In this document: positions 6,867 through 38,074 of the stretch, in pieces
Position numbering within the stretch: position 1 is the stretch's first letter
Layout of the letters: every line of letters starts with the position of its first letter
Origin: Bacteroidales bacterium
GTDB lineage: Bacteria > Bacteroidota > Bacteroidia > Bacteroidales > UBA932
Direction: 5' to 3'
NCBI GenBank assembly: GCA_017934185.1
Contig: JAGBJY010000007.1
Coordinates: forward strand, 1 to 42,642
Length of the DNA stretch: 42,642 nt
Translations under genes and position numbers: made by a program
The notes under the pieces: model-generated
What the model saw: only the letters and a program-made list of their open reading frames with translations
The model's database searches: none
What the model was told of the DNA's origin: nothing

Positions 6867-6874
6867 CAAGATTG

Positions 6875-6909: not shown

Positions 6910-6927
6910 GTTAAAGGACCACAGGAT

Positions 6928-9977: not shown

Positions 9978-11972
9978 TTACTGGATGTAACCGTAGTATT
10001 CGGCATCCGTTGCGCAGTCCCACCAGACGGGGATGCTCCAGATGTCATCTTCCGTGGCGTGCTTGTTGGACGCCTTGGCATTGGTGGCATTGTAGTTCAG
10101 CTCCGTAGTGGCAGGCAGGCGGTAGCGGCGGACCCAATACTGAGGATCGGTCTTGCTGGTACCGGGGAGTTTGGCCTGACCGGTGAAGAGCGGGCCTCTG
10201 TCATAACCTTCATAGATGACGCCATAGTCGCCGATGTCGCCGGCACTGAAGTTGAAGCGGCGCATATCTACCCAGTTCTCAATGTGGAAGCCCATGGCAA
10301 CATATTTCTGCAGCATGATGTCCTTCATGGTGAGGTCTCCACTGTTCTGAGCTACAGCAGCACTGGCCAAGTAGGCGGTGATGTCGGCGTCATTCATGGG
10401 AGCCATATCCGGATTGTTGGCGCTGAAGCCGGCACCCTCCCATTCGCGCAGTTCCTTCTGCATACGTTCCATGTGGGCACGGATACCATCCTTATAAGCC
10501 TGCAGGGCACCGGGCTTGTCGCCTTTCCGGAACAGCACCTCGGCTTTGATGAAGCAGAGCTCATAGTAGGTCATGACGTCCCAATCGGACTGCGGGTGCA
10601 CCTGGAAAGAGCCCGTGGAGCCAACCACCCCGGCGTTGAACTGGGCAGGTCCGGTATACCAGTTCACGTCGGTAGCGGGCTGCCCGGAGCCGGCCATGGA
10701 CTTCTGGGAATTGCTACGGATGTTCACATACTGGATATCATTGGCATAGACGTAGTTGTTGCTGGAGCAATACATGGAGCCGGCAGGATAAGTGACCGTA
10801 ACGTCCTTTCCGTCTGCCTGATAAGCCAGTGTCCCCAGGCCTGCGATGAAAGCAGCACGTTCTGCGTCGTCATTGATGGTATACTTCACGTCTGTATCCG
10901 CACTGGCATAAACGGGCGTCTGGATAGACGCGGCGCCACCACTCGCAAGAAGACGCGTAGCGTCACCATAACTGTCAACGCCTTCGGAACGAAGCCAATC
11001 ATAGGAAGCGACCTTGCCATTGGCATCCAAGGTCACGTTCACCATGGTGGCGGGGACAATCTTGGGCATACGGGGATCTTCCACACCGGCACCGCGCATA
11101 TTCACCAGAAGGTCCTTGTAGAACTTGGAAATGCGCTGCGTGGAGCCATAGGCAACATAATCCCAGGTGGGATTGGTCATAATGGGATCCTGCATCCAAT
11201 AGTCAATCACATCGGAGGCGGAGTTATAGCAGAGCATGTAGATGTTCTCGTCATTGGACTGCGGGCCCTTGGCAATGCAATCCAAAATCTCGTCCGGGTC
11301 AAAGAGGTCGCTCTTCTTGGAAAGACGCAGGAGATAACGGGCTTTCAGGCCATAGGCCAGCTTGGTCCACTTGGCAGGATCGCCGCCGCACCACATATCA
11401 CCCAAGGCCAGCGGAGTCGCCGTGCTGGGTTGCTCTTTGGCAAAGAGTTCGATGGCGTGGTTCAGTTTTGCGATACAGCCGTTGAAGATGGTTTTACCGT
11501 CATCGTACTTAGGGGAAGCTATGCCGGCCAGTGCTTCTGTATAGGGGAATTCGCCCATGGTGTCCAGCATCCCCATAAAGCCCATGGCGTGAATGACTTC
11601 CGCGGCGCCCATATAGTAATACGCATCCTCTTTCTCGGCTTTGTTATAGAGGTCGGGGAGGTTACAGGCTGCATTCACAAGCCAAATCTGCTCGGAGGCA
11701 GTGGTAGATCCGGCCTGGCAGTTCCAAGTGGTGGAAAGATGGTTGTTGTTGGCGTTGGTACTGTACAGACTGCCGGAAATACAAGATGTGCGCATATCGG
11801 CCGGGCCCGTAGCATAGCCATAGAAGTGCTGTATCCAGGGCAGACGGTTCTCTACCAAGGCACTCTCGTTGTTGGGAGAGTCTGGATCCGTATTCACATC
11901 CAGCCACTTGTTGCAAGAAGCCAGGGACAGGATTGCGATGGCGCAAAGGAAAAATTTATAAAGTGTTTTCAT
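9978..11972 (-). CDS. SusD-like outer-membrane glycan-binding lipoprotein
   Basis: A 664-residue SusD/RagB-type lipoprotein that captures substrate at the cell surface and forms the lid of the neighbouring SusC channel. The signal peptide MKTLYKFFLCAIAILSLASC ends in a lipobox and is followed by NKWLDVNTDPDSPNNE, typical of SusD-like proteins (the SusD-like_2 group). Helical repeat regions follow, with FIKAEVLFRKGDKPGALQAY as a conserved late motif. It is longer than most relatives (about 500-550), suggesting extra loops around residues 340-430. It lies 13 bases after its SusC gene. No glycosidase is linked to the pair, so the substrate is unknown. Confidence 0.93.
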   Translation of the reverse strand: MKTLYKFFLCAIAILSLASCNKWLDVNTDPDSPNNESALVENRLPWIQHFYGYATGPADMRTSCISGSLYSTNANNNHLSTTWNCQAGSTTASEQIWLVNAACNLPDLYNKAEKEDAYYYMGAAEVIHAMGFMGMLDTMGEFPYTEALAGIASPKYDDGKTIFNGCIAKLNHAIELFAKEQPSTATPLALGDMWCGGDPAKWTKLAYGLKARYLLRLSKKSDLFDPDEILDCIAKGPQSNDENIYMLCYNSASDVIDYWMQDPIMTNPTWDYVAYGSTQRISKFYKDLLVNMRGAGVEDPRMPKIVPATMVNVTLDANGKVASYDWLRSEGVDSYGDATRLLASGGAASIQTPVYASADTDVKYTINDDAERAAFIAGLGTLAYQADGKDVTVTYPAGSMYCSSNNYVYANDIQYVNIRSNSQKSMAGSGQPATDVNWYTGPAQFNAGVVGSTGSFQVHPQSDWDVMTYYELCFIKAEVLFRKGDKPGALQAYKDGIRAHMERMQKELREWEGAGFSANNPDMAPMNDADITAYLASAAVAQNSGDLTMKDIMLQKYVAMGFHIENWVDMRRFNFSAGDIGDYGVIYEGYDRGPLFTGQAKLPGTSKTDPQYWVRRYRLPATTELNYNATNAKASNKHATEDDIWSIPVWWDCATDAEYYGYIQ

Positions 11973-11985: not shown

Positions 11986-14900
11986 TTATTTGATGACACA
12001 TACAGCCACGCGGTTGGATTCGGGAGCCAGGGAGGCGTCCTTGTCGGTGCCGGTGGAATCGAAGGTGATGCGGTCGGCGCTGATACCGGCCTTCTTGAGC
12101 ATATTCACCACCACCTCGGCGCGCCGGGCCGACAGGCTCTTGTTCTTGTCGGGAGTACCGGTAGCGCTGTCGGCATATCCGGTGATGGTTACACGGGCAT
12201 GAGGATTGTCCTTGAGTACACGGGAGATTTCACCCAGCTTGAAGGCCTCGTCGGGACGGATTTCGGCCTTGCCGATGACGAAGTAGATGTCGTCGGTGTA
12301 GACGCCGTCAAGGGTGTTGGCGGGAACTTCCTTCACCACTTCCTTGACTACTTCTTTCTCTACCACCTTTTCCTTCACAACCTCTACCTCGCGGACAATT
12401 TCCTGGATGGCTGCTACGGAAGGAGCAGACTTGACCTTACCCTCGGACGGGCTGCCGCCAAAGCTGACATTTACGCCGAAGGAAACAGTGGAAACGGCCG
12501 GTACGCTGGCATAATCGATGCCCGTAGCGCCGGAACCACCGGTACCACCTGCTGTGCTCACTTCCGGATCCATGCCCTTGTAGTTGGTAATGGTAAAGAG
12601 GTTGGTGCCGCTGAGCGTGGCGCTGAGGCCCTTGATGATGCTAGTCTTCTTGATCAGGGAAGTAAAATCGTAAGTCAGGGAGAGCGAACGGAGCTTGAGC
12701 CAGTTCACATCCGTAATGAAGTTGTAGGAATTGCTCCTGTAATTGGACCAATAGCTCTGAATCAGAGACTTACCATTATAGGTAACACCCTTGATTTCGT
12801 AGTTCTGGTCGGCATTGTAGGTAACGGTTACAGGATCTCCGGCCGCGACATTCTGGCCGCCGATAACACCGTCGGCAGAAGCTACACCGGTAAGGGTGAC
12901 GCTCTGGCGGTCATTCAGGGTGGTCACAGGGCTGATACCGGAATTCACCATGAGCCAGTCGGTACCATTGTAAACGGCACCGCCGATGCGGAAGTCCAGG
13001 AGGAAGGACAGCGAGAGGTTCTTGTAACGGAGGGTGTTGGCCAAACCGCCGATGAACTTGGGCTCGCGGTTGCCCACCAGGGCATCCGTTTCGGTGGACA
13101 CCTTGTACAGGCCGGTATTGGGGTCGATGGCATAGGCGCCGCCCATGATTTCGTTGCCATCGGCATCCTTTTCATACTCATAACGGGTACCTACCAAACC
13201 GAGGAAAATACCGCCGTTGGGGATGGAGGCCGCCTGCACGGAACCGAACTGGGCGTCCGTAGGATAGAACTTGGTCACACCCTCAAGGAACTGTCCCAGC
13301 GTGCCGCGGTTATAGGAACCGTTGAGCACAATGGTCCAATCCCAATTGCGGTTGGAAACCGGGATAAAGGTGAGGGCGAATTCCTGGCCACGGTTGATAA
13401 CCGAACCGGAATTGATGGTGGTCATGGAGTAACCACTGGCCTGGGACAGACGGGGACGGGCAATCTGGTTCATGGTCTCACTGTGGTAGTAAGTCCAGTC
13501 CAGGCCGATGCGTCCGTTCAGGAATTTGAGTTCGGCACCCACTTCCCATGCGGTCTGGATTTCGGGCACCAGGTAGGGGTTGCCGGCTTCGAAATAGTTA
13601 CCTACCAGGGTAAAGTTGCCATAGGTGTAGGGAGCCAGGAGGTTGGTGGAAGTTACATAGGCCTCGGCATCTTTACCTACGCGGGCCCAGGAGGCGCGGA
13701 CCTTACCGAAGGAGAGGATGTTGTTCTGAGGAATGAGTTCAGAGAAAACGAAGGACCCGGACACAGAAGGATAGAAGTAACTTCTGTTGTCGATGGGAAG
13801 GGTTGAGGACCAGTCGTTACGGCCGGTAACGGTGAGGTAAGCAATGTTCTTATAGGCCACACCAAACTCACCGTACACACCTACAAGGCGCTTCCGGACG
13901 GTTGCATCTTTGAACTGCTGGTTGCCCTTTGCAATATTGGTGAACGATGCGGTACCGGCGGTGATAAAGTTATAGCCCCAGTGCTGCTGGTTATGACGCT
14001 CGGTTGCTTCAGTGGTGGTACCCACGAGCAGATGCAGGTCAAAATTACCAAAGCTCTTGTGCATGTTGCTCATCACGTTGGTGGATAGGTACTGATAGTT
14101 GTAGTCGCTCTTGTTCAGACGGCCATTCTGGTACATATCCCTTACAACGGAACCAGGGGCAATATAAGTATAAGCATCGGTGGTGAAGGTGTCGTAACCC
14201 ACACGGGCCGATACATTCCACCAGTCGGTGATATCGAAACCGGCATTCAGGGCACCGGTAAAGCGGTTGGTCTTGTCGTAAAGCTGGTCTTTATTGATGA
14301 TCCAGTAAGGGTTTTCCTTATCATCGGCCAGTTCCCAGATGCCGTCGAAGAGGCGGTACTTGGAACCGTCTTCATTCAGATAATGGCTCATGTTTTCGGT
14401 GATGGGCCAGGTGTAGAGGGATTCCATGGAACCGGAACCGCCACCGTCATACAGACCGGCTGAAGTGAGGGTCTTGTCGGTCTTGGAAATGGCATACGAA
14501 ACATTGGCACCTACCGTCAGGCGGCCGAATTTCTGCTCGCCGTTGAAACGGACAGTGGTCTTGTTATAACCGGTATTGGGAACGATACCTTTCTGATTGA
14601 AGTTGGACAGGGACAGATAGAAAGAATTGTTCTTGGTACCACCGGAAACACTCACGTTGTTATCATAAATAACGCCGGGCTTGAAGAAGTTGCCGATATT
14701 GTCATAAATCTGTGCACCAGCGCCCAATTTTTCGCCCCAAAGGCTGTAAGTCTGGTCATTAAGAACGCCATTGGTGGTATAAGAGCCGCGGCCGAAAGTG
14801 GTCTGGGCCTGAGGGAGCTTGTTTCCCCAGGAGACACTGGCCTTGCCGGCATAGTCTACTTTCACGGAGCCTTCAGAGCCCTTCTTGGTGGTGATGATGA

Positions 14901-15651
14901 TAGCACCATCGGCCGCCTTGGAACCGTAAAGAGCGGCAGCAGCGGCACCTTTCAGCACGGACATGCTCTCGATATCTTCGGGGTTGATATCCATTACACG
15001 GTTGGAATAGGTGGTGTTGCTGCGGGACATGCCGTCTGTTCCGGTATTACCGAGTACCGTAGTGGAGTTATCGTAGATGATACCGTCCACAACGAACAGC
15101 GGGGTATTGTCGCGGCCCTCGTAGGTGGAGTTGGCGCCACGGATGATGATGGAAGCACCGGCACCGGCGGCACCGGAAGACTGGGTAACATTCACACCAG
15201 GGACCTTACCTGCCAGGGAATTGATCACATTGGCGTTTTTGTTCTTCAGGAGTTCTTCGGAATTCACTTCAGACACCGAATAGCCCAGTGCCTTTCTTTC
15301 ACGCTTGATACCCAGCGCCGTCACCACGGATTCTTCCAGGATGTCGTTGTCTTCCTGCAGGGTGATGCGAAGATTGCCGGCAGCGGCGGCCACCTCCACG
15401 GTGGAATAGCCGATGCAGGAAATCTCCAGAGTAGCACCGGAGGGAGCTGTCAGGGCAAAGGCACCGTTCCCGTCGGTCATGGTACCGTTGGTGGTTCCTT
15501 TGACAATTACGCCTGCTCCCGGAACGGGCTGACCGCTCTCATCGGAGACAGTTCCCTTCACAGAAATGTTCTGTGCAGAAAGCCCCACACAGACCAGCAG
15601 TGCAGCAAATACCGTCACCACACGTGCACTAAATAGTTTTTGAAGAGACAT
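11986..15651 (-). CDS. SusC/RagA TonB-dependent transporter fused to an OmpA-like domain
   Basis: A 1221-residue outer-membrane importer. Order of parts: signal peptide (to about residue 26, ending VGLSAQ); a carboxypeptidase-regulatory-like domain (ISVKGTVSDESGQPVPGAGV, residues 29-100); a TonB plug starting VVTALGIKRERKALGYSV; and a 22-strand barrel that ends near residue 1066 with VSTVSFGVNVSFGG. Normal SusC proteins stop at that strand. Here a 49-residue charged linker (EKVVEKEVVKEVVKEV) and an OmpA-like domain (about 1116-1221) follow. The OmpA domain has TITGYADSATGTP and the peptidoglycan-binding motif NKSLSARRAEVVVNML with the key Asp and Arg. It is co-transcribed with SusD behind a strong promoter at 15741-15771. 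Confidence 0.95.
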   Translation of the reverse strand: MSLQKLFSARVVTVFAALLVCVGLSAQNISVKGTVSDESGQPVPGAGVIVKGTTNGTMTDGNGAFALTAPSGATLEISCIGYSTVEVAAAAGNLRITLQEDNDILEESVVTALGIKRERKALGYSVSEVNSEELLKNKNANVINSLAGKVPGVNVTQSSGAAGAGASIIIRGANSTYEGRDNTPLFVVDGIIYDNSTTVLGNTGTDGMSRSNTTYSNRVMDINPEDIESMSVLKGAAAAALYGSKAADGAIIITTKKGSEGSVKVDYAGKASVSWGNKLPQAQTTFGRGSYTTNGVLNDQTYSLWGEKLGAGAQIYDNIGNFFKPGVIYDNNVSVSGGTKNNSFYLSLSNFNQKGIVPNTGYNKTTVRFNGEQKFGRLTVGANVSYAISKTDKTLTSAGLYDGGGSGSMESLYTWPITENMSHYLNEDGSKYRLFDGIWELADDKENPYWIINKDQLYDKTNRFTGALNAGFDITDWWNVSARVGYDTFTTDAYTYIAPGSVVRDMYQNGRLNKSDYNYQYLSTNVMSNMHKSFGNFDLHLLVGTTTEATERHNQQHWGYNFITAGTASFTNIAKGNQQFKDATVRKRLVGVYGEFGVAYKNIAYLTVTGRNDWSSTLPIDNRSYFYPSVSGSFVFSELIPQNNILSFGKVRASWARVGKDAEAYVTSTNLLAPYTYGNFTLVGNYFEAGNPYLVPEIQTAWEVGAELKFLNGRIGLDWTYYHSETMNQIARPRLSQASGYSMTTINSGSVINRGQEFALTFIPVSNRNWDWTIVLNGSYNRGTLGQFLEGVTKFYPTDAQFGSVQAASIPNGGIFLGLVGTRYEYEKDADGNEIMGGAYAIDPNTGLYKVSTETDALVGNREPKFIGGLANTLRYKNLSLSFLLDFRIGGAVYNGTDWLMVNSGISPVTTLNDRQSVTLTGVASADGVIGGQNVAAGDPVTVTYNADQNYEIKGVTYNGKSLIQSYWSNYRSNSYNFITDVNWLKLRSLSLTYDFTSLIKKTSIIKGLSATLSGTNLFTITNYKGMDPEVSTAGGTGGSGATGIDYASVPAVSTVSFGVNVSFGGSPSEGKVKSAPSVAAIQEIVREVEVVKEKVVEKEVVKEVVKEVPANTLDGVYTDDIYFVIGKAEIRPDEAFKLGEISRVLKDNPHARVTITGYADSATGTPDKNKSLSARRAEVVVNMLKKAGISADRITFDSTGTDKDASLAPESNRVAVCVIK

Positions 15652-23355: not shown

Positions 23356-25713
23356 ATGCTAAAACTTTTTAACCGGATTTTCACAGCTTTGACCCTCACA
23401 GTCCTTCTCTGTGCCTGTTCCAGCAAAGCCCCCCGATACAAAGATGCCTCCCTCAGCGCCCAGGAGCGGGCCGATGACCTGATTTCCCGCATGACGGTGC
23501 CCGAAAAACTGGGGCAGCTGCTGTGCCCGCTGGGATGGCCGATGTATGAAAAGACGGAAGAGACTGTCCACATCACGGACGAGTACCGCCGCTTCATTCA
23601 GGAGAACCACGGCGGCATGCTCTGGGCCACTTTCCGGGCCGATCCCTGGACCCGCAAAACCCTGGAAAACGGCCTTACGCCGCAGCTCTCGGCCAAAACT
23701 TACAACGCTTTGCAGCACTACGCCATAGACTCCACCCGCCTGGGCATCCCCATCCTCCTGGCCGAGGAAGCCCCGCATGGGCACATGGCCATCGGCACCA
23801 CCGTGTTCCCCACCTCCATCGGCCTCAGTGCCACCTGGGACCCCGAACTCATTGAGCAGGTGGGCCGCGTCATTGGAGAGGAACTCACCGCCCAGGGCGG
23901 ACACATCGGCTACGGACCGGTGATTGACCTGAGCCGCGAGCCCCGCTGGTCCCGCGTGGAAGAAACTTACGGCGAGGATGTTTACCTCACTTCCCAGATG
24001 GCTTCGGCCATGGTGCGCGGCACTTCTTCCAAGGGGGTCATCTCTACTTTGAAGCATTTTGTGGCGTATGGCATTCCGGAGGGCGGTCACAACGGCAGTC
24101 CCAGCCACATCGGCGCCCGGGATTTGGAAGAAAATGTGCTGCCCACTTTCAAGGCGGCCATCGATAATGGCGCCCTCAGCGTCATGACCAGCTACAACAC
24201 CATTGACGGGGTCCCCACCAGCTGCAACCCGGAACTGCTCACCGGCGTGCTCAGGGACCGCTGGAACTTCCGCGGCTTTGTGGTGAGTGACCTGGAGAGC
24301 ATTGACGGCATCTTTGGCAGCCACCATGTGGCCGGAAGCCTGCAGGAAGCCGGTGAAATGGCCCTCAATGCCGGGGTGGACGTAGACCTGGGGGCACACT
24401 GCTTTGCCCTGTTGGAGCAGTCCGTGGAGGAAGGCCGTGTGAGCATGGCCACGCTGGACCGCGCCGTAAAGCGGGTGCTCCTGAGAAAATTCGAGCTGGG
24501 CCTCTTTGACCATCCTTACCTTCCGGAAGGGTCGGCCGGGGAAGTTCGCAGCGCCGCACATGTGGAAGTAGCCGCCCAGGCGGCCCGCGAAAGTGTGACG
24601 CTCCTGAAAAACAACGGCGTACTGCCGCTGAGGGCCGGTACGCGCATCGCCCTCGTGGGGCCCAATGCCCATAATCAGTACAATCAGCTGGGCGACTACA
24701 CCGCTCCGCAGCCCGACGAAAACGTGGTAACCATGCTGGAAGGCCTCCAGAACGCCGGTGCGGCCGTTAGCTATGTGAAAGGCTGCGCCATCCGGGACAC
24801 CCGTACGGAGAACATCGCCGCCGCCGTGCAGGCCGCGCGCCGCGCCGATGTGGTGGTGGCCGTGGTGGGCGGTTCATCGGCCCGGGATTTCAAGACCAAG
24901 TACATTGATACCGGCGCCGCCGTGGTGGACGAAACCTCCGTATCCGACATGGAGGCCGGCGAAGGCTTCGACCGCAGCACCCTGGACCTCCTGGGCCTCC
25001 AGGAGCCGCTGCTGAAACAGCTGAAAGCCACCGGAAAGCCCCTGGTGGTGGTGTACATTGAAGGCCGCCCGCTCAGTAAAAACTGGGCCGCGCAGGAGGC
25101 CGATGCCCTCCTCACCCTCTGGTATCCCGGCGGCGAAGGCGGACAGGCCCTCGCCGATGTCCTGCTGGGCCGATACAACCCCGCCGGACGCCTCTCCGTG
25201 AGCGTACCCCGCAGCGTGGGGCAGCTTCCGGTGTACTACAACCGGAAAATCCCTTACAGCCACGACTATGTGGAAGAAAGCGCCCAGCCGCTGTATCCTT
25301 TTGGCTATGGGCTCAGTTACACTACCTTTGCGTACAGTAACTTGAGGACTGAGATGCCCGGTCAAGCCGGACATGACGGAGCGTCATTGCCGGCCACGAC
25401 CGGCAATCTCCCTACAAAAGTCTTTGTGGACGTGACCAACACCGGGGCCATGGACGGCGACGAAGTGGTGCAGCTGTACATCCGCGACCTGGTGGCCTCC
25501 ACGGCCCGCCCCCGCAAGCAGCTCTGCGCCTTTAAGCGCGTACATGTGAAGGCCGGCGAAACCGTCACGGTGGAGCTCCCCCTGCAGCGCAGCGCCTTTG
25601 AACTGGTGAATCCCGCCATGCAGCGCGTAGTGGAGCCCGGCGAATTTGAGCTCCAGGCGGGCGCCAGTTCCGATGACATCCGGCAGACGTTAACTGTAAC
25701 TTATCAGCACTGA
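23356..25713 (+). CDS. GH3 beta-glucosidase/beta-xylosidase-like lipoprotein
   Basis: A 785-residue exo-acting beta-glycosidase, first gene of the large glycan locus. The lipoprotein signal ends LTVLLCACSS. The TIM barrel carries RADDLISRMTVPEKLGQLL, then KHFVAYG and the nucleophile Asp312 in GFVVSDLESI. The alpha/beta sandwich follows (RIALVGPNAHNQYNQLGDY, TLWYPGGEGGQALADVLLG), then an FnIII-like domain (VFVDVTNTGAMDGDEVVQLY). Between YTTFAYSNLR and the FnIII strand a 20-odd-residue insertion (EMPGQAGHDGASLPATTGNL) is encoded by two palindromes at 25354-25407, apparently an in-frame repeat. Exact sugar specificity cannot be told; GH3 includes glucosidases, xylosidases and hexosaminidases. 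It ends 34 bases before the GH2 gene. Confidence 0.94.
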   Translation: MLKLFNRIFTALTLTVLLCACSSKAPRYKDASLSAQERADDLISRMTVPEKLGQLLCPLGWPMYEKTEETVHITDEYRRFIQENHGGMLWATFRADPWTRKTLENGLTPQLSAKTYNALQHYAIDSTRLGIPILLAEEAPHGHMAIGTTVFPTSIGLSATWDPELIEQVGRVIGEELTAQGGHIGYGPVIDLSREPRWSRVEETYGEDVYLTSQMASAMVRGTSSKGVISTLKHFVAYGIPEGGHNGSPSHIGARDLEENVLPTFKAAIDNGALSVMTSYNTIDGVPTSCNPELLTGVLRDRWNFRGFVVSDLESIDGIFGSHHVAGSLQEAGEMALNAGVDVDLGAHCFALLEQSVEEGRVSMATLDRAVKRVLLRKFELGLFDHPYLPEGSAGEVRSAAHVEVAAQAARESVTLLKNNGVLPLRAGTRIALVGPNAHNQYNQLGDYTAPQPDENVVTMLEGLQNAGAAVSYVKGCAIRDTRTENIAAAVQAARRADVVVAVVGGSSARDFKTKYIDTGAAVVDETSVSDMEAGEGFDRSTLDLLGLQEPLLKQLKATGKPLVVVYIEGRPLSKNWAAQEADALLTLWYPGGEGGQALADVLLGRYNPAGRLSVSVPRSVGQLPVYYNRKIPYSHDYVEESAQPLYPFGYGLSYTTFAYSNLRTEMPGQAGHDGASLPATTGNLPTKVFVDVTNTGAMDGDEVVQLYIRDLVASTARPRKQLCAFKRVHVKAGETVTVELPLQRSAFELVNPAMQRVVEPGEFELQAGASSDDIRQTLTVTYQH
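25354..25407. repeat. In-frame double-palindrome element inside the GH3 gene
   Basis: Two stems lie side by side: ATGCCCGG/CCGGACAT (25354-25374) with loop TCAAG, and ATTGCCGG/CCGGCAAT (25386-25407) with loop CCACGA, perfect in the second. Together they encode a Gly/Ala/Pro-rich stretch in a linker between two folded domains. Size, paired GC hairpins and in-frame location resemble Rickettsia-type palindromic elements. Confidence 0.75.
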
Positions 25714-25747
25714 GACACAATTGCACAAATAACTGATATACAATAAC

Positions 25748-28700
25748 ATGCATTTCACACTTCTTTTACTCCTTACAGCGCTGCCTTACTGGCAGGACGT
25801 GAACGTAACTTCCGTGAACGCAGAAACCCGGCGCACGGAAGTGGTGTACTACCCCACCCGTGAGGACGCCTTGCAGAAAGGCTTCCGCGAAAGCCCCAAC
25901 TACGTAAACCTGAACGGAACGTGGGACTTCCGCTACTTTGAAGACTGGAAAGAGATTCCCGGTATGGACAGCGCGGTGATGCCCGGCTACACCGACCAGA
26001 TTCACTGGGAGCAGATTACCGTTCCCGGCAACTGGGAAGTTCAAGGCTGGGGCATTCCCATCTATGTGAACCAGCCCTACGAGTTCAGCATGGAGAATCC
26101 GCAGCCCCCCACCCTGCCGGACGCTTTCCCGGCAGCCCTGTATCACCGGAAATTTACGGTGCCCGAGAGCTGGAAAGGCCGTGAGATTTTCCTGAATCTC
26201 TGCGGCACCAAGAGCGGCACCTATGTGTATGTAAACGGTCAGGAGATTGGCTACAGCGAAGACTCCAAAGACCTGGCCCGCTTCAACATCACCCAGGCCC
26301 TGGTTGCAGGAGAGAACGACCTGCTCCTGCGCATTTTCCGCTATTCCACCGGGTCTTATCTGGAGTGCCAGGACTTCTGGCGCATTTCCGGTATTGAGCG
26401 GGACGTGTACCTGTCCAGCGAAATCAAGGACAGCGGCTTTGACTTCAGCGTTGTGTCCACCCTCACCGAAGACCTGTTCACGGGTATTTTCAAACTGAAA
26501 ATGCATTCCTCCGCCCCCACCGAGGTTTCCTACGAACTGCTGGACAAGGACGGCAGCACCGTGGCCGATGCTTGCTTCGAGTTCAACGGCCGCATGGCCA
26601 CCGTCACGGACAGCATCCCCGGCGTAAGGCTCTGGAGCGCCGAAACCCCTGAACTGTACACCCTTCTGCTGAAAGTCAACGGCGAATATACCCGCTTCCA
26701 CGTGGGCTTCCGCCGCCTGGAAATCAAGGAAGTGGCCGATGGCGACAAAATGGTGCACGCTTTCTTCGTAAACGGCCAGCCGGTAAAATTCAAGGGCGTG
26801 AACCTGCATGAGCACAATCCCTACACCGGTCACTACATTACCAGGGAGAACATCCTGGAAGACCTGAAACTCATGCGCCTTTGCAATATCAACGCCATCC
26901 GTACCTGCCATTACCCGCAGCCGCGCGAGTTCTATGAGCTCTGCGACTCCCTGGGCTTCTATGTGTACGACGAGGCCAATATCGAGAGCCACGGCATGGG
27001 CTACGACCTGGACCGCACTCTTGGCAACAAACCCGACTGGTACATCAAGCATCTGGACCGCACCCTGAACATGTACCGCCGCACGGCCAACTATCCCTGC
27101 GTCACCATCCTTTCGCTGGGCAACGAAGCCGGCAACGGTGTGAACTTCTACAACACCTACAAGGAGCTGAAAGCCCTGGAAGAGAACGGACAGAACCGTC
27201 CCGTGGTGTATGAACGCGCCCAATATGAATGGAACACCGACTTCCTGAATCCCATGTACCCCGGCACTTCCTGGCTCAAGCGGCAGGGAGAAAACTACAA
27301 GGAAAAACCCATCGTGCTGTGCGAATACACCCATGCCATGGGTAACTCCAACGGCTCGCTGGATTGGCAGTGGGAGCAGTTCTACGCCCACACGCACCTG
27401 CAGGGCGGCTTCATCTGGGACTGGGTGGACCAGGGCCTGTTTGACAAGGAGCGCGGCTGGACCTACGGCGGCGACTACGGCGAGAACGCCCCCTCCGACG
27501 ACAACTTCAACTGCAACGGCGTGGTGAATCCGGACCGTGACCCGCACCCCGGCTTCTACGAAGTAAAACACGTGTACCAGAATGTGAGCATCACCCCTGT
27601 TGATGCCCGCAGCGGCGTTTTCCAGATTTTCAACCGCCACTATTTTGTGACCCTCAAAGACTTCTCCGTGAAGTGGTGGGTAGAGCGCGACGGCCGCAAG
27701 CCCTGGTACTGGAAAAAGCATACGCTCCACTTTGACACGGCTCCCCAGACCGCCGAAGAATTCACCCTCAAGCTCCCCAGAATGGGCAAAGCCTGCGAAT
27801 ACCGCATCTTCTTTGAGGTATCGGCCGCAAAGAACGGCCTCCTGGTAGAGAAAGGCGAGGTTTATGCCTTTGACGAGGCCCTCATCAAAGACACCTCGGC
27901 CCCGGAAAAACGCGTTGTGAAGGGAACGCTGGACTGCACCGACGGCGACACCCAGATTGTAGTACGCGGGAAAAACGTGGAACTGGTCTTCGACAAGGCC
28001 AATGGTACCGTCAAAAGCTGGAAGGTGAAGGGCCAGGACATGATTGACCCGGCTTTCGGCCTCAGGCCCAACTACTGGCGCGCTCCCATTGACAATGACT
28101 ATGGCAACCGCGCTCCCGTAAGAGCGAAGTACTTCAAGGAGCCCGGCACTCCGGTGAGCGTACAGGCTGTGAAGGAAAACGAAACCGTAATTATTAAGGT
28201 AAGCGGCAATGACGTCCGCAAGAGCGAGCGTTACACCGTGTATCCGGACGGCGCCCTCAAGATTGAGGTGGAGACCGCCGCGGTAGATGCTCCCAAGCCC
28301 GAAAACGAATACTACCGGATGGAAATCCCGCGCCTGGGCCTGCGCTTCCATGTGGCGGAGGATGCCTTCTCCTACTTTGGCCGCGGACCCGTGGAGAACT
28401 ACTGGGACCGCAACAGCGGCACTTTCAAGAGCATCTGGAAGTCATCGGCCAGCAAAGAATACTATCCGTATGTGCGCCCGCAGGAATGCGGCCACCACAC
28501 CGAAACGTCCTGGCTGCAGGTGGGCGCAATGACAGTGCTGTCTGAGGAGCCCTTCGAGTTCAACGCCCTTCGCGTGAGCATTGAAGACCTGGACGGCGGC
28601 CTTACCAAGAGCCAGACCCACATCACCGACGTGCAGGAAAAAGACTACACCGAGGTGTGCATCGACTACAAGATGAGCGGTATCGGCGGCTACGACAGCT

Positions 28701-28804
28701 GGGGCTCCCGTCCGGAAAAGGCCCGCACCCTGTGGGCCGACGAAGCCTACAGCTACAGCTTCACGCTGGTTCCCGGAAAGGTTAACGGAAAAATCGTTTA
28801 TTGA
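25748..28804 (+). CDS. GH2 beta-galactosidase (LacZ-like)
   Basis: A 1018-residue exo-beta-galactosidase with the full five-domain LacZ layout: sugar-binding domain (NLNGTWDFRYFEDWKEIPGM, ITVPGNWEVQGWGIPIYVN), immunoglobulin-like domain, TIM barrel (FKGVNLHEHNPYTGHYITRE), second Ig-like domain and the C-terminal Bgal_small_N domain (LRPNYWRAPIDNDYGNRAPV). The acid/base Glu460 lies in LSLGNEAGNG and the nucleophile Glu526 in IVLCEYTHAMGNS. The N-terminus (MHFTLLLLLTALPYWQDV) is a short signal peptide, so it is exported, unlike cytoplasmic LacZ. In this locus it would remove terminal galactose from glycan antennae. Three bases separate it from the fucosidase gene. Confidence 0.95.
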   Translation: MHFTLLLLLTALPYWQDVNVTSVNAETRRTEVVYYPTREDALQKGFRESPNYVNLNGTWDFRYFEDWKEIPGMDSAVMPGYTDQIHWEQITVPGNWEVQGWGIPIYVNQPYEFSMENPQPPTLPDAFPAALYHRKFTVPESWKGREIFLNLCGTKSGTYVYVNGQEIGYSEDSKDLARFNITQALVAGENDLLLRIFRYSTGSYLECQDFWRISGIERDVYLSSEIKDSGFDFSVVSTLTEDLFTGIFKLKMHSSAPTEVSYELLDKDGSTVADACFEFNGRMATVTDSIPGVRLWSAETPELYTLLLKVNGEYTRFHVGFRRLEIKEVADGDKMVHAFFVNGQPVKFKGVNLHEHNPYTGHYITRENILEDLKLMRLCNINAIRTCHYPQPREFYELCDSLGFYVYDEANIESHGMGYDLDRTLGNKPDWYIKHLDRTLNMYRRTANYPCVTILSLGNEAGNGVNFYNTYKELKALEENGQNRPVVYERAQYEWNTDFLNPMYPGTSWLKRQGENYKEKPIVLCEYTHAMGNSNGSLDWQWEQFYAHTHLQGGFIWDWVDQGLFDKERGWTYGGDYGENAPSDDNFNCNGVVNPDRDPHPGFYEVKHVYQNVSITPVDARSGVFQIFNRHYFVTLKDFSVKWWVERDGRKPWYWKKHTLHFDTAPQTAEEFTLKLPRMGKACEYRIFFEVSAAKNGLLVEKGEVYAFDEALIKDTSAPEKRVVKGTLDCTDGDTQIVVRGKNVELVFDKANGTVKSWKVKGQDMIDPAFGLRPNYWRAPIDNDYGNRAPVRAKYFKEPGTPVSVQAVKENETVIIKVSGNDVRKSERYTVYPDGALKIEVETAAVDAPKPENEYYRMEIPRLGLRFHVAEDAFSYFGRGPVENYWDRNSGTFKSIWKSSASKEYYPYVRPQECGHHTETSWLQVGAMTVLSEEPFEFNALRVSIEDLDGGLTKSQTHITDVQEKDYTEVCIDYKMSGIGGYDSWGSRPEKARTLWADEAYSYSFTLVPGKVNGKIVY

Positions 28805-28806
28805 CC

Positions 28807-30252
28807 ATGAAACGCGGCATCATCGGCCTGTTGGCTGCCCTTGCGGCGGCTTCCTGCGCAAAAGCGCCCGCCCCTTACGGCACCCTGCCCTCCCCCGCCC
28901 AGGTTCAGTGGCAGCGGCAGGAACTCATCATGTTTTACCACTATGGCCAGGCCACTTTCAGTGGCTGGGACGGGGAAAACGGCAGCTGCAACGGTACTCC
29001 CTGGAGTGAAGACCTCCTGCTGGAGCATTATGCCCCTGAGGCCCTGGATGTGGACCAGTGGGTGAAAGTGGCGGCCGACAACGGCTTCAAGGAAGTGATT
29101 ATCACCGCCAAACACCACGACGGCTTCTGCCTCTGGGACAATCCGGAAAGCACGGCCGATATAGCCAACCCCGCCTGCAAGAACCCTACAGACGTAGTGC
29201 AGGCCGTCCGGGATGCCTGCAACAAATATGGTGTGCGCCTGGGCATTTACTTCTCGCCCTGGGACCGCGTGATTGAGTCCCAGAACCAGGACCTGGCCAC
29301 TTACGAGGCAGGGTACAAACGGGCTGCCGCAGACCTCATGACGCGTTATGCCCCCGTGGTGGAATTCTGGCTGGACGGCAATCACGCCGCCGCCTTTGAC
29401 TGGCCCGAGATTCACCGCACGGTGCTGGAACAGAACCCCGACTGCATCATCTTCTCCGACGGCGGTCCAGGCTGCCGCTGGGTGGGCAACGAACGCGGCC
29501 GCGCCGGCGAGACCAACTGGGCCACGCTGGACGTGGAGCGCTGGGGCCTCACCCCCGGCAACGCCCCTTCCAACTACGCCACGCTGCTCGCCGAAGGTGA
29601 CAAAGGCGGCCCCCTGTGGGTCCCCGCCGAATGCGACTTCTCCATCCAGGAGATTGGCGACCCCGACGGCTGGTTCTATGACCCCGCCGATGCCGTAAAA
29701 TCCGGACTGGAGCTGCTTCAAATCTATTATTCCAGCGTGGGCCGCGGCGGCGTTTTCCTCATGAATGTGCCGCCTTCCCCGGAGGGGGTGATTGCGCCCA
29801 AAGAGCTGGCCGCCATCGAGGAATTCACCGCCATGCGCCGGAAGGTGTTTGAGACCAATTTGGCCGAGGGCGCCGGCGTAAGCGCCTCCAGCGTGCGCGG
29901 GAAGAAATTCGGCCCCGAAAAGCTGCTGGACGGAGAATATGACTCTTATTTCGCAGCGCCGGATGAGGCCACTTCGGTGAGCCTGGAATTCAAGCTTCCG
30001 GAGAAAAGGACCTTCAACCGCCTGGTCCTCCAGGAATACATCCCGCTGGGGCAGCGCGTAGAGAGTTTCTCTGTCCAGTATCGCGACGCCGACGGGCAGT
30101 GGCAAGACTGGCAGAAAGGCACCACCATCGGCTACAAACGCATTTTGCTGGGGGCCGATGTAACTACGGACGCTGTTCGCGTTACCATTGAAGCGGCCCT
30201 CGCCTGCCCCGTACTCAACGGCTTCGGCCTGTATTATGACCCTTATCAATAA
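28807..30252 (+). CDS. GH29 alpha-L-fucosidase, first tandem copy
   Basis: A 481-residue alpha-L-fucosidase. The signal (MKRGIIGLLAALAAASCAK) is lipoprotein-like. The catalytic barrel begins QWQRQELIMFYHYGQATFSG and has ITAKHHDGFCLWDNPES; the nucleophile is probably Asp190 in VVEFWLDGNH. The last 130 residues form a discoidin/F5-8C-like sugar-binding domain (NLAEGAGVSASSVRG to the end, with RLVLQEYIPLGQRVESFSVQ). The next gene is a close paralogue. I chose ATG 28807 because the TTG at 28801 overlaps the GH2 stop and adds only two residues. With the neighbouring GH2 it would strip fucose and galactose from host or plant glycans. Confidence 0.94.
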   Translation: MKRGIIGLLAALAAASCAKAPAPYGTLPSPAQVQWQRQELIMFYHYGQATFSGWDGENGSCNGTPWSEDLLLEHYAPEALDVDQWVKVAADNGFKEVIITAKHHDGFCLWDNPESTADIANPACKNPTDVVQAVRDACNKYGVRLGIYFSPWDRVIESQNQDLATYEAGYKRAAADLMTRYAPVVEFWLDGNHAAAFDWPEIHRTVLEQNPDCIIFSDGGPGCRWVGNERGRAGETNWATLDVERWGLTPGNAPSNYATLLAEGDKGGPLWVPAECDFSIQEIGDPDGWFYDPADAVKSGLELLQIYYSSVGRGGVFLMNVPPSPEGVIAPKELAAIEEFTAMRRKVFETNLAEGAGVSASSVRGKKFGPEKLLDGEYDSYFAAPDEATSVSLEFKLPEKRTFNRLVLQEYIPLGQRVESFSVQYRDADGQWQDWQKGTTIGYKRILLGADVTTDAVRVTIEAALACPVLNGFGLYYDPYQ

Positions 30253-30255
30253 ACT

Positions 30256-32088
30256 ATGAAATTTGGAAAATGGGCTGTCTGGATGGCAGCCGCCTTGCTG
30301 GGCTGCGCCTGCAGTCCCGCAGAAAAACCCTCCGGAACGGAAGAGAACATTCCTGCCACCGCCGTAATCCTGAGCCGGGAGAGTCTTTCGGTGAAAGTGG
30401 GCGATGATTTTAAACTGGCCGCCCGCATACAGCCGTACAACGCTACCAATCAGACGGTTAACTGGTCGGCTGGGGATGAAAGCCTCCTTCAGATCAATGC
30501 CCAGACCGGGCAGGCAAAGGCCCTTGCCGAAGGCAGCACCACCGTTACGGCCACCGTGGCCCAAAGCACCGTATCGGCCTCCTGCAATGTGACCATTACG
30601 GCATCGGCCAAACCCAATCCGGATCCCGACCCGGACCCTGATCCAGACCCCAATCCCGACCCCGATCCGGATCCCACAGACCCCGGAGCACCTGCCGCAT
30701 ACGGCGCCGTGCCTTCCTCCGGACAAGTGGCCTGGCAGCGCCAGGAACTGCTCATGTTCTATCACTACGGCCAGGCCACCTTCAGCGGTTGGGACGGTGA
30801 AAACAGCAATTGCAACGGCAGCAGCTGGAGCGAAAGCCTCCTGCTGCAGAATTACGCCCCCACCACCATTGACGCCGACCAGTGGGTGAAAGTGGCCTAC
30901 GACAACGGCTTCAAAGAGGTGATTCTCACCGCCAAGCATCACGACGGCTTCTGCCTCTGGGACAATCCCGAGAGCACCACGGACGTGGCCAACACCAATT
31001 GCAAGAACCACACAGATGTGGTAAAGGCCGTGCGCGACGCCTGCAACAAGTACGGCGTGAACATGGGCATCTACCTCTCCCCCTGGGACCGCATGATTGA
31101 AGTCTCCGGCAAGAGCACTTCCCAGTATGAGACCATGTACAAAAACGCCCTCAAGGACCTCATGACCCGCTATGCCCCCGTGGTGGAAATGTGGTTTGAC
31201 GGTAACCACGCCGGCAATTTCAACTGGTCCAGCGTGAACCAGGTGGTCTTTGACGTGAACCCCAACTGCGTCATCTTCTCCAATGGCGGCCCCGGCTGCC
31301 GCTGGGTGGGCAACGAAAACGGCGACGCCGGCGAGACCAACTGGGCCACCATCAATATCAAGGGCCGCGGTCTTACCCCCAGCAACCTGCCCGGAGGCTA
31401 TGAAAGCTACCTTTCCCAGGGCGACCGCAACGGCGACACCTGGTGCCCGGCCGAATGTGACTTCTCCATCCAGCAGATCGGAGACCACAACGGCTGGTTC
31501 TACGGTGCCAACGATTCCCGCAAAACCGCCAAGCAGCTCATGCAGCTCTATTATGAGAGCGTGGGCCGCAACGGCGTGTTCCTGATGAATGTCCCGCCCA
31601 GCGACAAGGGCGTGATTGACGACAAGGAGAAGAAAATCATCGAGGACTTCACCACCATGCGGAAGGCCGTCTTTGCCACCAACCTGGCCGAGGGTGCCAC
31701 CGCCACGGCTTCTTCCGTGCGCGGCAATTACACCCAGGGATACGGAGCACAGAACCTGCTGGACGGCAATTACGACACTTATTTCGCCACCGACGACAAC
31801 GTCAAGACCGTTGACATTGAAATTGCCCTCAGTGGCAGCAAAACCTTCAACCGCGTGGTGCTGCAAGAGTACATCCCGCTGGGCCAGCGCGTAGAAAGCT
31901 TCACCGTCCAATACAAGAGAAACGGCAGCTGGACCGACTGGAAACAAGGGACCACCATCGGCCACAAACGCATCCTTATGGGCTCCAGCGTAACCACGGA
32001 CGCCGTGCGCATCCGGATAACCGCTGCCCTGGCCTGCCCGGTGCTCAATACCTTCGGGCTTTACAACGATACGGTTTCCGGACTATGA
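30256..32088 (+). CDS. GH29 alpha-L-fucosidase with Big2 domain, second tandem copy
   Basis: A 610-residue paralogue of the preceding enzyme with additions at the N-terminus. A lipoprotein signal (MKFGKWAVWMAAALLGCACS) is followed by a Big2-type immunoglobulin-like domain (SLSVKVGDDFKLAARIQPYN, about residues 35-115), an Asp-Pro repeat linker (about 119-142), the GH29 barrel (ELLMFYHYGQATFSGWDGEN) with nucleophile Asp315 in VVEMWFDGNH, and a C-terminal F5/8C-like domain. The domain order suggests a cell-surface enzyme held away from the membrane by the spacer, with the first copy acting nearer the membrane or in the periplasm (inference). It ends with an ATGA overlap into the DUF1573 gene. 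Confidence 0.94.
   Translation: MKFGKWAVWMAAALLGCACSPAEKPSGTEENIPATAVILSRESLSVKVGDDFKLAARIQPYNATNQTVNWSAGDESLLQINAQTGQAKALAEGSTTVTATVAQSTVSASCNVTITASAKPNPDPDPDPDPDPNPDPDPDPTDPGAPAAYGAVPSSGQVAWQRQELLMFYHYGQATFSGWDGENSNCNGSSWSESLLLQNYAPTTIDADQWVKVAYDNGFKEVILTAKHHDGFCLWDNPESTTDVANTNCKNHTDVVKAVRDACNKYGVNMGIYLSPWDRMIEVSGKSTSQYETMYKNALKDLMTRYAPVVEMWFDGNHAGNFNWSSVNQVVFDVNPNCVIFSNGGPGCRWVGNENGDAGETNWATINIKGRGLTPSNLPGGYESYLSQGDRNGDTWCPAECDFSIQQIGDHNGWFYGANDSRKTAKQLMQLYYESVGRNGVFLMNVPPSDKGVIDDKEKKIIEDFTTMRKAVFATNLAEGATATASSVRGNYTQGYGAQNLLDGNYDTYFATDDNVKTVDIEIALSGSKTFNRVVLQEYIPLGQRVESFTVQYKRNGSWTDWKQGTTIGHKRILMGSSVTTDAVRIRITAALACPVLNTFGLYNDTVSGL
30612..30681 (+). repeat. Asp-Pro dipeptide linker repeat
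   Basis: About twelve tandem repeats of a Pro-Asp or Pro-Asn codon pair (GATCCC, GACCCG and similar) encode a stiff acidic spacer between the Big2 and GH29 domains. Codons vary at the third base, so the peptide rather than the DNA is conserved. Absent from the first GH29 copy. Confidence 0.85.
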
Positions 32089-32849
32089 CCCCTCAGCACG
32101 CTGTCATTCTGAGCGCAGCGAAGAATCTCCTGCCCCTCTGCCTCCTTGTGGCCGCAGCCTGCGGCCCCAAGGACGGCATCCGCACCCTCCGCACCACCAC
32201 CTCCACGGAGGCTGACCTGGGCCGCATCAAGGAAATTGACGGCCCTGTAACGGTGCGCCTCCTGGTGAAAAACGACTATACCGATACCCTGTACCCTGTT
32301 CACCTGTACACCCCTTGCGCCTGCACCCAGGTGCAGTTTGACCGCAAACCGGTGCCTCCTGGGCAGGACGAGGTGCTGCTGGTGAGCTACAACCCCGCCT
32401 ATCGGCCCGGCCCCATGATGGAAGAATTTGTAGTGTATTACAGCAACTCCCCCGTCAAGACCCGCAGCCTGGTCATCAAGGGCGAAGTCATCGGCTACAA
32501 CCATCCCATTGAGGAAGACCGGCCCTATGCCTTCGGCGAAGGGCTGTACATGAGCCACAAGGTCCTGAGCTTCGGGGCCTGCCGGCCCGGCGAAACCCGC
32601 GACATGTTCTTCCGCCACGGCAACGGGAATTCGCACAAATCTGTCATCCATTTTGAGATTCCTTCCCAGTGGCAGCCGTATCTGAGGATGCGCCAGCCCG
32701 GCAAAATGAAGGCCGATGAACGGGACACCATTCATGTCAAGTTCACCATGCCGGAAGGAATTGATTCAGTGGAGTTTACCGTTCAGCCCACGGTGGACGG
32801 CGCCCTCACCGAAGAAAAATTGACCATCCGGGCCGTCTTAAAGCAATAA
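32085..32849 (+). CDS. DUF1573 lipoprotein
   Basis: A 254-residue exported protein with one or two DUF1573 immunoglobulin-like modules (about 45-120: EADLGRIKEIDGPVTVRLLV, then the TPCACTQV motif, PPGQDEVLLVSYNPAYRPGP). DUF1573 proteins are frequent in Bacteroidetes as periplasmic or surface lipoproteins; function is not established. The signal peptide ends LLVAAACGPKDG, but its first third (AVILSAAKNL) is encoded by a dispersed repeat. The start overlaps the fucosidase stop (ATGA), so it is translationally coupled to the enzyme operon. A later start is possible only by losing the signal peptide. A promoter for SusC follows. Confidence 0.85.
   Translation: MTPQHAVILSAAKNLLPLCLLVAAACGPKDGIRTLRTTTSTEADLGRIKEIDGPVTVRLLVKNDYTDTLYPVHLYTPCACTQVQFDRKPVPPGQDEVLLVSYNPAYRPGPMMEEFVVYYSNSPVKTRSLVIKGEVIGYNHPIEEDRPYAFGEGLYMSHKVLSFGACRPGETRDMFFRHGNGNSHKSVIHFEIPSQWQPYLRMRQPGKMKADERDTIHVKFTMPEGIDSVEFTVQPTVDGALTEEKLTIRAVLKQ
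32102..32130. repeat. Dispersed palindromic repeat inside a signal-peptide coding region
   Basis: The same repeat as at 753-778 in the opposite orientation (25 of 26 bases; core GTCATTCTGAGCG, then AGCGAAGAATCT). Here it encodes VILSAAKNL in a lipoprotein signal peptide. Confidence 0.85.
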
Positions 32850-32890
32850 TTTTTTAACAAAAAATCCGTTCAATTGTTCTAAATTATTGC

Positions 32891-32952: not shown

Positions 32953-35900
32953 ATGAGTTACCAACTTAAGCGAGTTCTTGCAGGAGCCATCACAGCTCTT
33001 GCCGGACTGTTCGTAGCCGGCACACTCGCCATGGCCCAAAACCGGACCGTGACGGGCACCGTGCTGGATGACTACGGCGAGCCCCTCATCGGCGCAAGTG
33101 TGACTGCAGAAGGAGTGACGCCCCCGCTGGGCGTCGTCACCGACCTGGACGGACGTTATGAGATTTCCGTTCCCGCCGGCGTGACGCAGCTGCGTTTCTC
33201 TTTCATCGGCCAGGAAGACGCCCTTGAGACCATCGGCAGCCGCAGTGTCATTGATGTAACCCTCGTGGCTGCCAACAACGTCCTCAACGCGACGGTAGTC
33301 ACCGCCATGGGTATCAAGAAGGAGGAGAAATCCCTCTCCTACAACGTACAGCAAACCAAACTGGAGGGCGTTTCTCCGGTGGGTTCGTTCGTCAACAGCC
33401 TCAACGGTAAGGTGGCGGGCGTTTCCATCAGCCAGTCCTCCACGGGTGTGGGCGGCAGCTCCCGTATCGTGATGCGCGGCTCCAAGTCCATCTCCAACAA
33501 CAACAATGCGCTGTACGTGATTGACGGTATTCCCATGCAGTCCCTGCGCGGAACCCAGCCGGAAGGTGTATACGCCGGCGCCGGGCAGACCGGTGACGTG
33601 CTGGGCTCCATCAACCAGGACGATATCGAGAGCATCTCCGTGCTCTCCGGCCCTTCGGCCGCAGCCCTGTACGGTGCCAACGCCGCCAACGGTGTTATTA
33701 TCATCACCACCAAGAAGGGCGGGAAGGACAAGCTGGACATTGACTACAGCAACTCCACCACCTTCTCCCGGGCCTTTGTGATGCCGCAGTTCCAGAGCAC
33801 CTACGGTGCCACCGCTCCCGGATCCTTCTACAGCTGGGGCGCCAAGCTGGACACGCCGTCCACCTACAACCCGCGCGATTACTTCCAGACGGGCCTGAAC
33901 GAGGTGAACTCCCTGGCCGTTTCCACCGGCACCGAGCGCAGCCAGACCTACCTTTCCGCTGCTGTTGCCAATGCCCGCGGCATTGTGCACAACAACAATG
34001 TGAACCGTTACAACCTGAGCTTCCGCAACACCACGGACATTGTCAAGGACATCCTCACCATGGACGTAAACATCACGTACGGACGCGTGAACGAGCAGAA
34101 CATGATTGCCCAGGGTGAATACGGCAACCCCATTGTGCCGGTGTACCTCTTCCCCGCCAGCGAAGACTGGTCCAGGGTACAGATTTACGAGCGCTACGAC
34201 ATCGGCCGCGGCCTCAAAACCCAGTTCTGGCCCTACGACTTCGAACATTCCATGCAGAACCCCTACTGGATTACGGAACATCAGAAATGGCAGAACGGCA
34301 AGAACCGTCTCATGGGCAGCGCCCAGCTCTCCTACAAGCCCTGGAAGTGGCTCACCCTGAGCGCCCGTGCCAAATATGACCGCACCGACGAAGTGCAGGA
34401 GCAGAAATTTGATGCCGGCACCAACACCCTCTTCACCGCCTCCAAGCATGGCCGTTACTACCGTAACAACCAGTACACGGAGCAGAAGTTCGGGGAAGTG
34501 CTGGCCACCTTCAACAAATACTTCGGAGACAACATTGTGAACCTCTCCGGCGTAGTGGGTGCCAACATTGACGACATTGCTTTCCGCACCGACTGGATTG
34601 GCGGTCCCCTGGCCCAGGTGAACAACAAGTTCGACCTGAACAACATTGACCGCGCCAGCGCCAATACTTCCGTAGGAACCGACGGTTACCGCATGCAGAA
34701 CCAGTCCGTCTTCGCCAACGCCCAGGTGGGCTTCCGCAGCAAGGTTTATCTGGACATGACCTTCCGCGCCGACTGGAACTCGGCCCTCTGGACGGCCGGT
34801 GCCATCACCTACCCCACCATCGGCCTCTCCGGCATTGTGACGGAAATCATTCCCGGTATGAAGAGCAGTTTCTTCCCTTACTGGAAGATCCGCGCCTCCT
34901 ATTCCGAGGTAGGTAACTCTCCGGATCCCGCCCTGTACCTGCTGGATCCCCGCGCCGAGCAGAAAGAAGGTGCCATCACCCGCAATACCCGCCGTGCCAA
35001 TACCGACCTCAAGCCGGAGCGCACCAAATCCTGGGAAGTGGGGACCAACATCCACTTCTTTGACAGCAAGGTCCAGTTGGACGCTACCTATTATAAGGCC
35101 AGCACCTTCAACCAGTTCTACAATCCCCGTCTGTCCTCCACCTCCACCAACAGCAATATTTATCTGAACGGCGGCCAGGTGGACAACTGGGGCGTGGAAA
35201 TGGCCCTGCGCTACGACGACAACGCGGGCAAGTTCAACTGGGGCACCTACCTCACCTGGACTTGGAACCAGAACAAGATTGTGGACCTGCATTTCACCGA
35301 TCCCGTCACCGGTGAAACCTATGACGGAAACGGCCTCCCCATGGGCGGCTTCGGCGGTGTGAACACCTTCCTCTATGAAGGCGGCACCCTGGGTGATGTG
35401 TATGTAACCACCATCGCTACCGACGAAAAAGGCTTCTACAGCCTCAACTCCGCCGGTATGATTCAGGCCGATTACAATGAAAGCAACATGATTTACGCCG
35501 GCACCACTGATGCCAAGCACCGCCTGAGCTGGGGTGGCCATCTGGGTTACGGCGGATTCACAGCCAACTTCCTCTTCACGGCCCGTCTGGGCGGCGTTGC
35601 CATTTCCAAGACCCAGGCTATCCTGGATTACTATGGTATTTCCAAGGATACGGCAGACGCCCGCGAAGTGGGATACTTTGACTTCAACGGCATGCGCACC
35701 TATGACGTGCAGGGCTATTACCAGACCCTGGGCGTGCGCGACGGTGTGATGAGCCAGTATGTCTATGACGCCACCAACGTACGCCTCGCCGAGGTTTCCC
35801 TGGGCTACGACTTCCCGGTTTCCAAATGGGGAACCTGGATCAAGGGCCTGAACCTGTCCGTGGTGGGCAACAACCTGGCCATGCTCTACCTCAAGGCTCC

Positions 35901-38060: not shown

Positions 38061-38074
38061 TGACGGTCGCATCT

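Follow-up and report, generated by a model that had tools for sequence, protein, structure and literature searches.

A SusC glycan importer with a C-terminal OmpA-like domain, and the distribution of its tail in one Bacteroidales family

What would a domain of the peptidoglycan-binding type do at the end of an outer-membrane glycan importer, and how often is it found there? Gut Bacteroidota that feed on glycans are characterised by SusCD importers, and in a TonB-dependent barrel the C-terminus points into the periplasm. Here, we describe a SusC whose chain runs past its barrel into an OmpA-like domain, encoded in a 42,642-nucleotide stretch of Bacteroidales DNA (the window). A preliminary description, made from the sequence, had presented it as a single odd protein; the SusC-OmpA layout stands, but the tail is a recurrent, exchangeable cassette that many unrelated SusCs carry within one bacterial family.

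Layout and predicted structure of the fusion

The fusion gene (11986..15651, minus strand, as are all features of this locus given below by residue or as the partner gene) is an uninterrupted frame of 1221 amino acids. Its translation begins with a probable signal peptide, judged by eye (residues 1-27; 15571..15651), followed by a CarboxypepD_reg-like N-terminal domain (Pfam PF13715, residues 31-110; 15322..15561) and a TonB-dependent receptor plug (Pfam PF07715, residues 122-250; 14902..15288). In profile searches the SusC/RagA model TIGR04056 matches residues 30-1064 with 643 bits (cut-off 368), and TIGR04057 also matches. The protein is a complete SusC barrel that does not end at the last strand, as is usual for the family, but continues for 155 residues. 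The last strand, AVSTVSFGVNVSFG (12457..12498; an AlphaFold2 strand, mature residues 1025-1038), leads into a Val/Glu/Lys-rich linker of about 55 residues with low model confidence (12292..12456) and then into an OmpA domain recognised by Pfam and by fold (PF00691, residues 1123-1207; 12031..12285), which scores 59.7 bits (cut-off 27.2; E 3.7e-16) in the whole protein and E 2.4e-17 in the tail alone. The reading of a SusC and an OmpA domain in one frame is thereby confirmed, as are its details: the tail of about 155 residues placed after VSFGVNVSFGG counts exactly 155 at the expected positions, linker and domain follow in that order, and the TGYADSATG and N..LS..RA residues are present in the domain. 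The premise that a SusC normally stops at its last strand also holds, with 37 of 39 tail-less SusCs ending in the last Phe, one in Leu, and one with a single Lys after Phe. The periplasmic location proposed for the tail agrees with the established orientation of the C-terminus of TonB-dependent barrels.

Structure prediction bears out this layout. An AlphaFold2 model of the full protein (input of 20 fusions; mean pLDDT 65, pTM 0.65) shows an N-terminal domain, a plug, a barrel of about 22 strands (counted by eye), a low-confidence linker (mature residues 1041-1086, pLDDT below 50) and an OmpA-type alpha/beta end (pLDDT 45-76 by 10-residue blocks); its best structural match is the SusC of BT2261-2264 (5fq6). 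Modelled alone, the tail takes an OmpA fold (mean pLDDT 71.9; residues 1-44 below 50, later 10-residue blocks 73-94) that matches Pal (2hqs), an OmpA-c-like domain (9uu2), OprF (5u1h), PorE (6top) and the A. baumannii OmpA domain with a diaminopimelate peptide (3td5). The tail is a domain and not a Pal, YiaD or PorE protein, because its scores lie far under the whole-protein cut-offs: 61-66 bits against 175 for the closest such model (YiaD-family NF053611), 47.8 against 261 and 43.6 against 125 for the Pal models NF008067 and TIGR02802, and 53.9 against 600 for the PorE model NF052230, which aligns with the OmpA part only.

The fusion shares with SusC/RagA proteins (BT2261-2264, 5fq6; RagAB, 6sln) the CarboxypepD_reg domain, plug, large barrel and adjacent SusD gene, and differs in adding a linker and OmpA domain where these usually end at the last barrel strand. 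OmpA and OprF porins have the same order of barrel, linker and periplasmic OmpA-like domain, but their barrel is small, with no plug and no SusD partner; an OmpA porin has an 8-strand barrel and no plug, whereas the fusion has a Pfam plug and some 22 strands. Pal shares the OmpA-like fold and the same Asp and Arg, but is a short lipoprotein partner of Tol with no barrel, while the domain described here is preceded by a SusC barrel. YiaD-family lipoproteins (NF053611) have an OmpA-like domain but stand alone without a barrel, and one is encoded separately in the same genome. PorE, of the type IX secretion system, resembles the fusion in being an outer-membrane protein of Bacteroidota that combines a CarboxypepD-type domain with an OmpA domain at its C-terminus, but it is a lipoprotein with CpoB-like and TolB-like parts and no barrel. 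A photosystem I chain (PDB 7f4v chain aB) is also a large membrane protein with OmpA-like residues (755-839, by sequence match) near its end, although it belongs to a photosynthetic complex; it may be another, parallel instance of a large membrane protein that ends in an OmpA-like tail.

Directly 3' of the fusion lies the gene for its SusD-like partner lipoprotein (9978..11972, minus strand; Pfam PF12771 and PF12741). The susCD pair is flanked by an ATPase_2-family protein (15826-17289) on one side and by a HigA-like helix-turn-helix protein (9234-9659) on the other, beyond which a GH28 gene and an esterase-type gene lie in convergent orientation (6820-9196). A tRNA-Ser gene (6779-6867) overlaps the mechanical start of the GH28 frame at 6820, so the true start of that frame is probably further in.

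Distribution of tailed SusCs

The source genome is a metagenome-assembled genome (MAG) of 2.13 Mb (85.8% complete, 4.8% contamination). PF00691 has 14 matches in it, seven of them in frames of 1083-1319 amino acids, and all seven frames are TIGR04056 SusCs; the tail is thus present on 7 of the 18 SusCs that score over the cut-off and include the barrel end, a count to which two further SusCs over cut-off, cut before the barrel end, do not belong. One of the seven lies in the window (32953..36471, plus strand; 1172 amino acids, OmpA domain at 36172-36438) and is called here the second fusion. It is followed on the same strand by its SusD partner (36480..38060; Pfam PF12741, E 5.3e-161) and an adjoining GH18/EndoS-like protein (38060..39223), and preceded, also on the plus strand, by genes for GH3, GH2, two GH29 alpha-L-fucosidases and a DUF1573 protein (23356..32849); a LamG protein is encoded downstream as well (locus 23356-40489). 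The GH3, GH2, paired GH29, GH18/EndoS-like and LamG neighbours suggest a fucosylated N-glycan-type substrate for this locus.

A junction profile was built from the last 230 residues of the seven fusions of this genome, and at most seven candidates per genome were scored with it, so that all fusion counts are lower bounds and absence applies at that depth. Whole-junction matches were found in 20 of 398 genomes of the same Bacteroidales family, the source genome included, in two genera; the frames are short in three of the 20 (G347, G358 and G291). With ten genomes reached through relatives of the second fusion and three more, the junction is present in at least 33 genomes of this one family, perhaps that of Cryptobacteroides and its relatives. 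No whole-junction match was found outside the family among the 393 genomes sampled from the order and the 395 from the phylum, samples that include a few members of the family itself; outside it, everything these samples gave was either an OmpA protein standing alone or a barrel end with a stop after it. In genomes of named species, at least 20 loci were found among the matches listed, and all 20 have the junction, two of them (L088 and L091) being cut by contig ends. For ten of these 20 loci the source named is a ruminant: a stomach compartment of goat, sheep, roe deer or water buffalo in eight cases, and reindeer and red deer in the other two.

The tailed set used below comprises 60 distinct genes, 57 of them whole at the 5' side within the available sequence. 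Among them at least L114 (in G286) and L117 (in G322), with a stop inside the SusC match and a start in mid-domain, are broken or misassembled genes. Could the fusion itself be a frameshift, a chimeric contig or an annotation artefact? The source is a fragmented MAG, but the frame is uninterrupted, 60 distinct SusC-OmpA genes, among them the 20 loci from named species, occur in many assemblies, and the alignment with tail-less orthologues is exact up to the tail and again after it. On the strength of the 60 genes and the exact orthologous sites we reject an artefact, the chance of which is negligible.

Several other long frames with OmpA domains were seen. Three of 1277-1335 amino acids (G378:C7, G317:C45 and G317:C24) have weak PF00691 matches (33-35 bits) and are possibly further divergent tails; the G378:C7 frame is also a SusC. 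Outside the family, a 929-amino-acid frame (L229; G1399:C4, 1-1827) ends in an OmpA domain and is not a SusC; its visible part is a polytopic membrane protein that, by eye, resembles a membrane pyrophosphatase, so that here too a wall-type tail sits on an unrelated membrane protein. There are also a 913-amino-acid OmpA frame in G016 and an 806-amino-acid frame with two OmpA domains (G190:C2:85030-86424).

Gain, probable loss and exchange of the tail

The tail behaves as a cassette, occurring on unrelated susC genes, gained, likely lost, and exchanged by recombination. A tree of barrels only (57 tailed, 39 tail-less; FastTree supports, many long branches) requires 16 changes between the two states, at least 12 of them forced by starred branches. 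The 39 tail-less SusCs were collected by profile from six genomes, with best-scoring loci only in the five other than the source genome. In a tree of OmpA domains, which has few columns, holds five genes twice and is missing the second fusion, 63 of the 64 rows from tailed SusCs, representing 58 of 59 genes, form one starred clade, a result biased toward a single clade because resemblance to the tail type of the 11986-15651 fusion was the main basis on which tailed genes were collected. The neighbours of this clade are the domains of ten stand-alone OmpA-type porins (about 360-460 amino acids) from the same family, whose linkers are Pro-rich in eight of ten cases, judged by eye. One SusC with an OmpA tail (L139, G322:C13) falls outside the main tail clade and may represent an independent capture.

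Tail identity barely tracks barrel identity. Pairs with barrels under 30% identical (1148 pairs) have a mean tail identity of 59% (range 28-89%), and pairs with barrels over 90% identical (12 pairs) a mean of 81% with a minimum of 47%. Together with the confinement of observed fusions to the family, this disfavours one ancient fusion inherited by all SusCs and followed by many losses. The clearest exchange is between L092 and L130, from two genomes, with barrels 99% and tails 48% identical. Their DNA is about 96% identical over the barrel and the first half of the linker. In a stretch that opens some 370 bases ahead of the stop and closes some 90 bases beyond it, identity per 60-base window drops to 53-75%, and in susD it is about 95% again; the crossovers lie among the linker's Lys-Glu-Val codons and at the lipobox of susD. 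Concerted evolution within genomes was considered and is weakly seen: for barrels under 40% identical, mean tail identity is 67.6% in nucleotides for same-genome pairs (n=49) and 65.0% for different-genome pairs (n=1567). G378 is one strong case, with two barrels 28% identical in amino acids and tails 88% identical in DNA (dS 0.29).

Among congeners, 21 of 360, the source genome included, match the SusC of the 11986-15651 fusion at E of 1e-120 or lower. Its nearest orthologues, 82% (G986) and 76% (G805) identical, are both tail-less, and none of the 11 inspected orthologue loci (L232-L242) has a tail, each stopping at the last barrel Phe; nine further congener matches, in frames of 878-1112 amino acids, stand outside this count. 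Relative to these tail-less orthologues, the fusion has about 470 extra bases exactly between the codon for the last barrel Phe and the stop, and its tail was therefore most likely gained on its own lineage. The nearest DNA relative of this tail is that of the second fusion (76% over 417 bases), slightly ahead of the others compared. Relatives of the second fusion have a tail at 16 of 20 inspected loci. Two of them, L208 and L209 (85% and 83% identical to the second fusion over the barrel query stretch), are tail-less and end in FGHVSNVK and FGSVNSVK, and from these short remnants after the barrel end we infer a likely loss of the tail; two others, L222 and L223 (70% and 69% identical), end at Phe.

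A putative wall anchor on glycan importers

The tails have the hallmarks of the peptidoglycan-binding type that had been proposed. Besides the fold shared with Pal, OprF and the OmpA of 3td5, two predicted diaminopimelate-binding residues, Asp1161 (12169..12171, minus strand) and Arg1177 (12121..12123, minus strand), aligned with Pal, are the same in every one of the 60 tails, and so are the Thr-Gly that follows the Asp and the Asn and Leu that precede the Arg. In A. baumannii OmpA, Asp271 and Arg286 are described as binding diaminopimelate in PMC12108004, the correspondence with the tail running via the Pal alignment and not through direct alignment with 3td5. A median tail dN/dS of 0.25 (64 orthologue-like pairs) indicates purifying selection. 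The linker, measured where the start of the domain is recognised (51 of the 60 tails), has 40-79 residues (median 53) and is 24% Val, 15% Glu and 14% Lys in composition. Just downstream of 59 of the 60 tailed genes an open reading frame of at least 250 amino acids begins (the gap is between -79 and 29 bases for 58 of them and 339 bases for the other), with matches in overlapping sets to SusD-like_3 (41), SusD_RagB (39), SusD-like_2 (27) and SusD-like (14); the remaining gene (L096) has a downstream frame too. Diaminopimelate in the organism's own wall is assumed from its congeners, since dapF scores over cut-off in all six congeners searched and was not found in its own MAG (86% complete).

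It is probable, in our judgement, that tailed SusCDs are glycan importers with a C-terminal peptidoglycan anchor on SusC, the anchoring step being suggested by the OmpA fold and the conserved Asp and Arg. The SusC barrel would insert into the outer membrane as usual, and the chain would leave its last strand into the periplasm, where the flexible Val/Glu/Lys linker of about 40-79 residues would span toward the wall and the end domain would grip the stem peptide at diaminopimelate through one Asp and one Arg. Each tailed transporter would then tether outer membrane to wall, be held against the pull of TonB, stay in the cell body, and supply more envelope links the more strongly its PUL is expressed. 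The cassette itself is grafted onto unrelated susC genes, probably lost at times, and swapped by homologous recombination, with crossovers observed at the repetitive linker and the susD lipobox. The tail might bring several benefits, namely immobilisation, resistance to TonB pull, retention against vesicle loss and extra tethering of the envelope; it may also position SusCD beside wall sites, as the preliminary description proposed. In these bacteria most SusCs, the inspected orthologues of the 11986-15651 fusion included, have no tail, so the tail is not needed for import.

Other uses of the domain have to be weighed. The chief benefit could be retention, with SusC and its SusD lid kept out of outer-membrane vesicles: according to PMC4604654, vesicles in current models bud at places where lipoproteins no longer join outer membrane to peptidoglycan, and many Tannerella SusC and SusD proteins stand in its table of vesicle-preparation proteins. 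We think this unlikely to be the main benefit; it is compatible with a wall anchor and not opposed to it. Binding to a protein (a periplasmic domain, TonB/ExbD or a dimer mate) in place of peptidoglycan, or a role in assembly, is a poor prospect in our estimate. An OmpA fold is by itself no proof of wall binding, and Pal, a near structural match of the tail, has also been solved in complex with the protein TolB; yet the Asp and Arg that contact diaminopimelate are both invariant in all 60 tails, and one tail type is common to barrels only 24-35% identical, a pattern more readily explained by a universal ligand, for instance the wall, than by a partner specific to each barrel. That the tail is a tolerated passenger of recombination, spread by an easily recombining linker and susD leader, would account for its gain, likely loss and exchange and for the 11 of 11 tail-less orthologues, but purifying selection and the invariant predicted binding residues make it improbable.

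A wall anchor on importers would add to other candidate anchors and be no substitute for them, since a YiaD-type lipoprotein and other OmpA frames are encoded alongside. The YiaD-family glycine-zipper/OmpA lipoprotein is present in the source genome (L003) and in G283 (L197) at 208.7 and 208.8 bits (cut-off 175), and other OmpA-domain frames occur in all 19 tailed genomes scanned, on which ground replacement of lost OmpA proteins by the tail was rejected. A broader proposal is that these importers double as substrate-inducible, recombination-shuffled tethers of outer membrane to wall, in a phylum reported to lack Pal, with glycan PUL expression tuning the fastening. We regard this as doubtful, and the stand-alone YiaD-family lipoprotein of the source genome makes it less likely.

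As the preliminary description had supposed, no account of a SusC with an OmpA tail was found in the open-access full-text literature, a scope outside which subscription papers fall. Pollet and others reportedly surveyed the domains of Bacteroidetes TonB-dependent transporters in 2021. Oar proteins were named for their resemblance to OmpA. Among the Tannerella proteins listed in PMC4604654 is one of 121 kDa named "Oar-like OM protein, OmpA family". In PMC12204202, no pal genes are reported as detected in Bacteroidetes, PorE is proposed as a possible tether of outer membrane to wall, and similar systems stabilising the outer membrane are said to be still to be revealed in this group. The tailed SusCs show that TonB-dependent transporters can exchange a C-terminal domain through recombination. 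A natural experiment on whether wall anchoring alters importer mobility, TonB-driven transport and loss in vesicles is provided by orthologues about 76-85% identical that differ in having the tail, and by barrels that are nearly the same but bear different tails.
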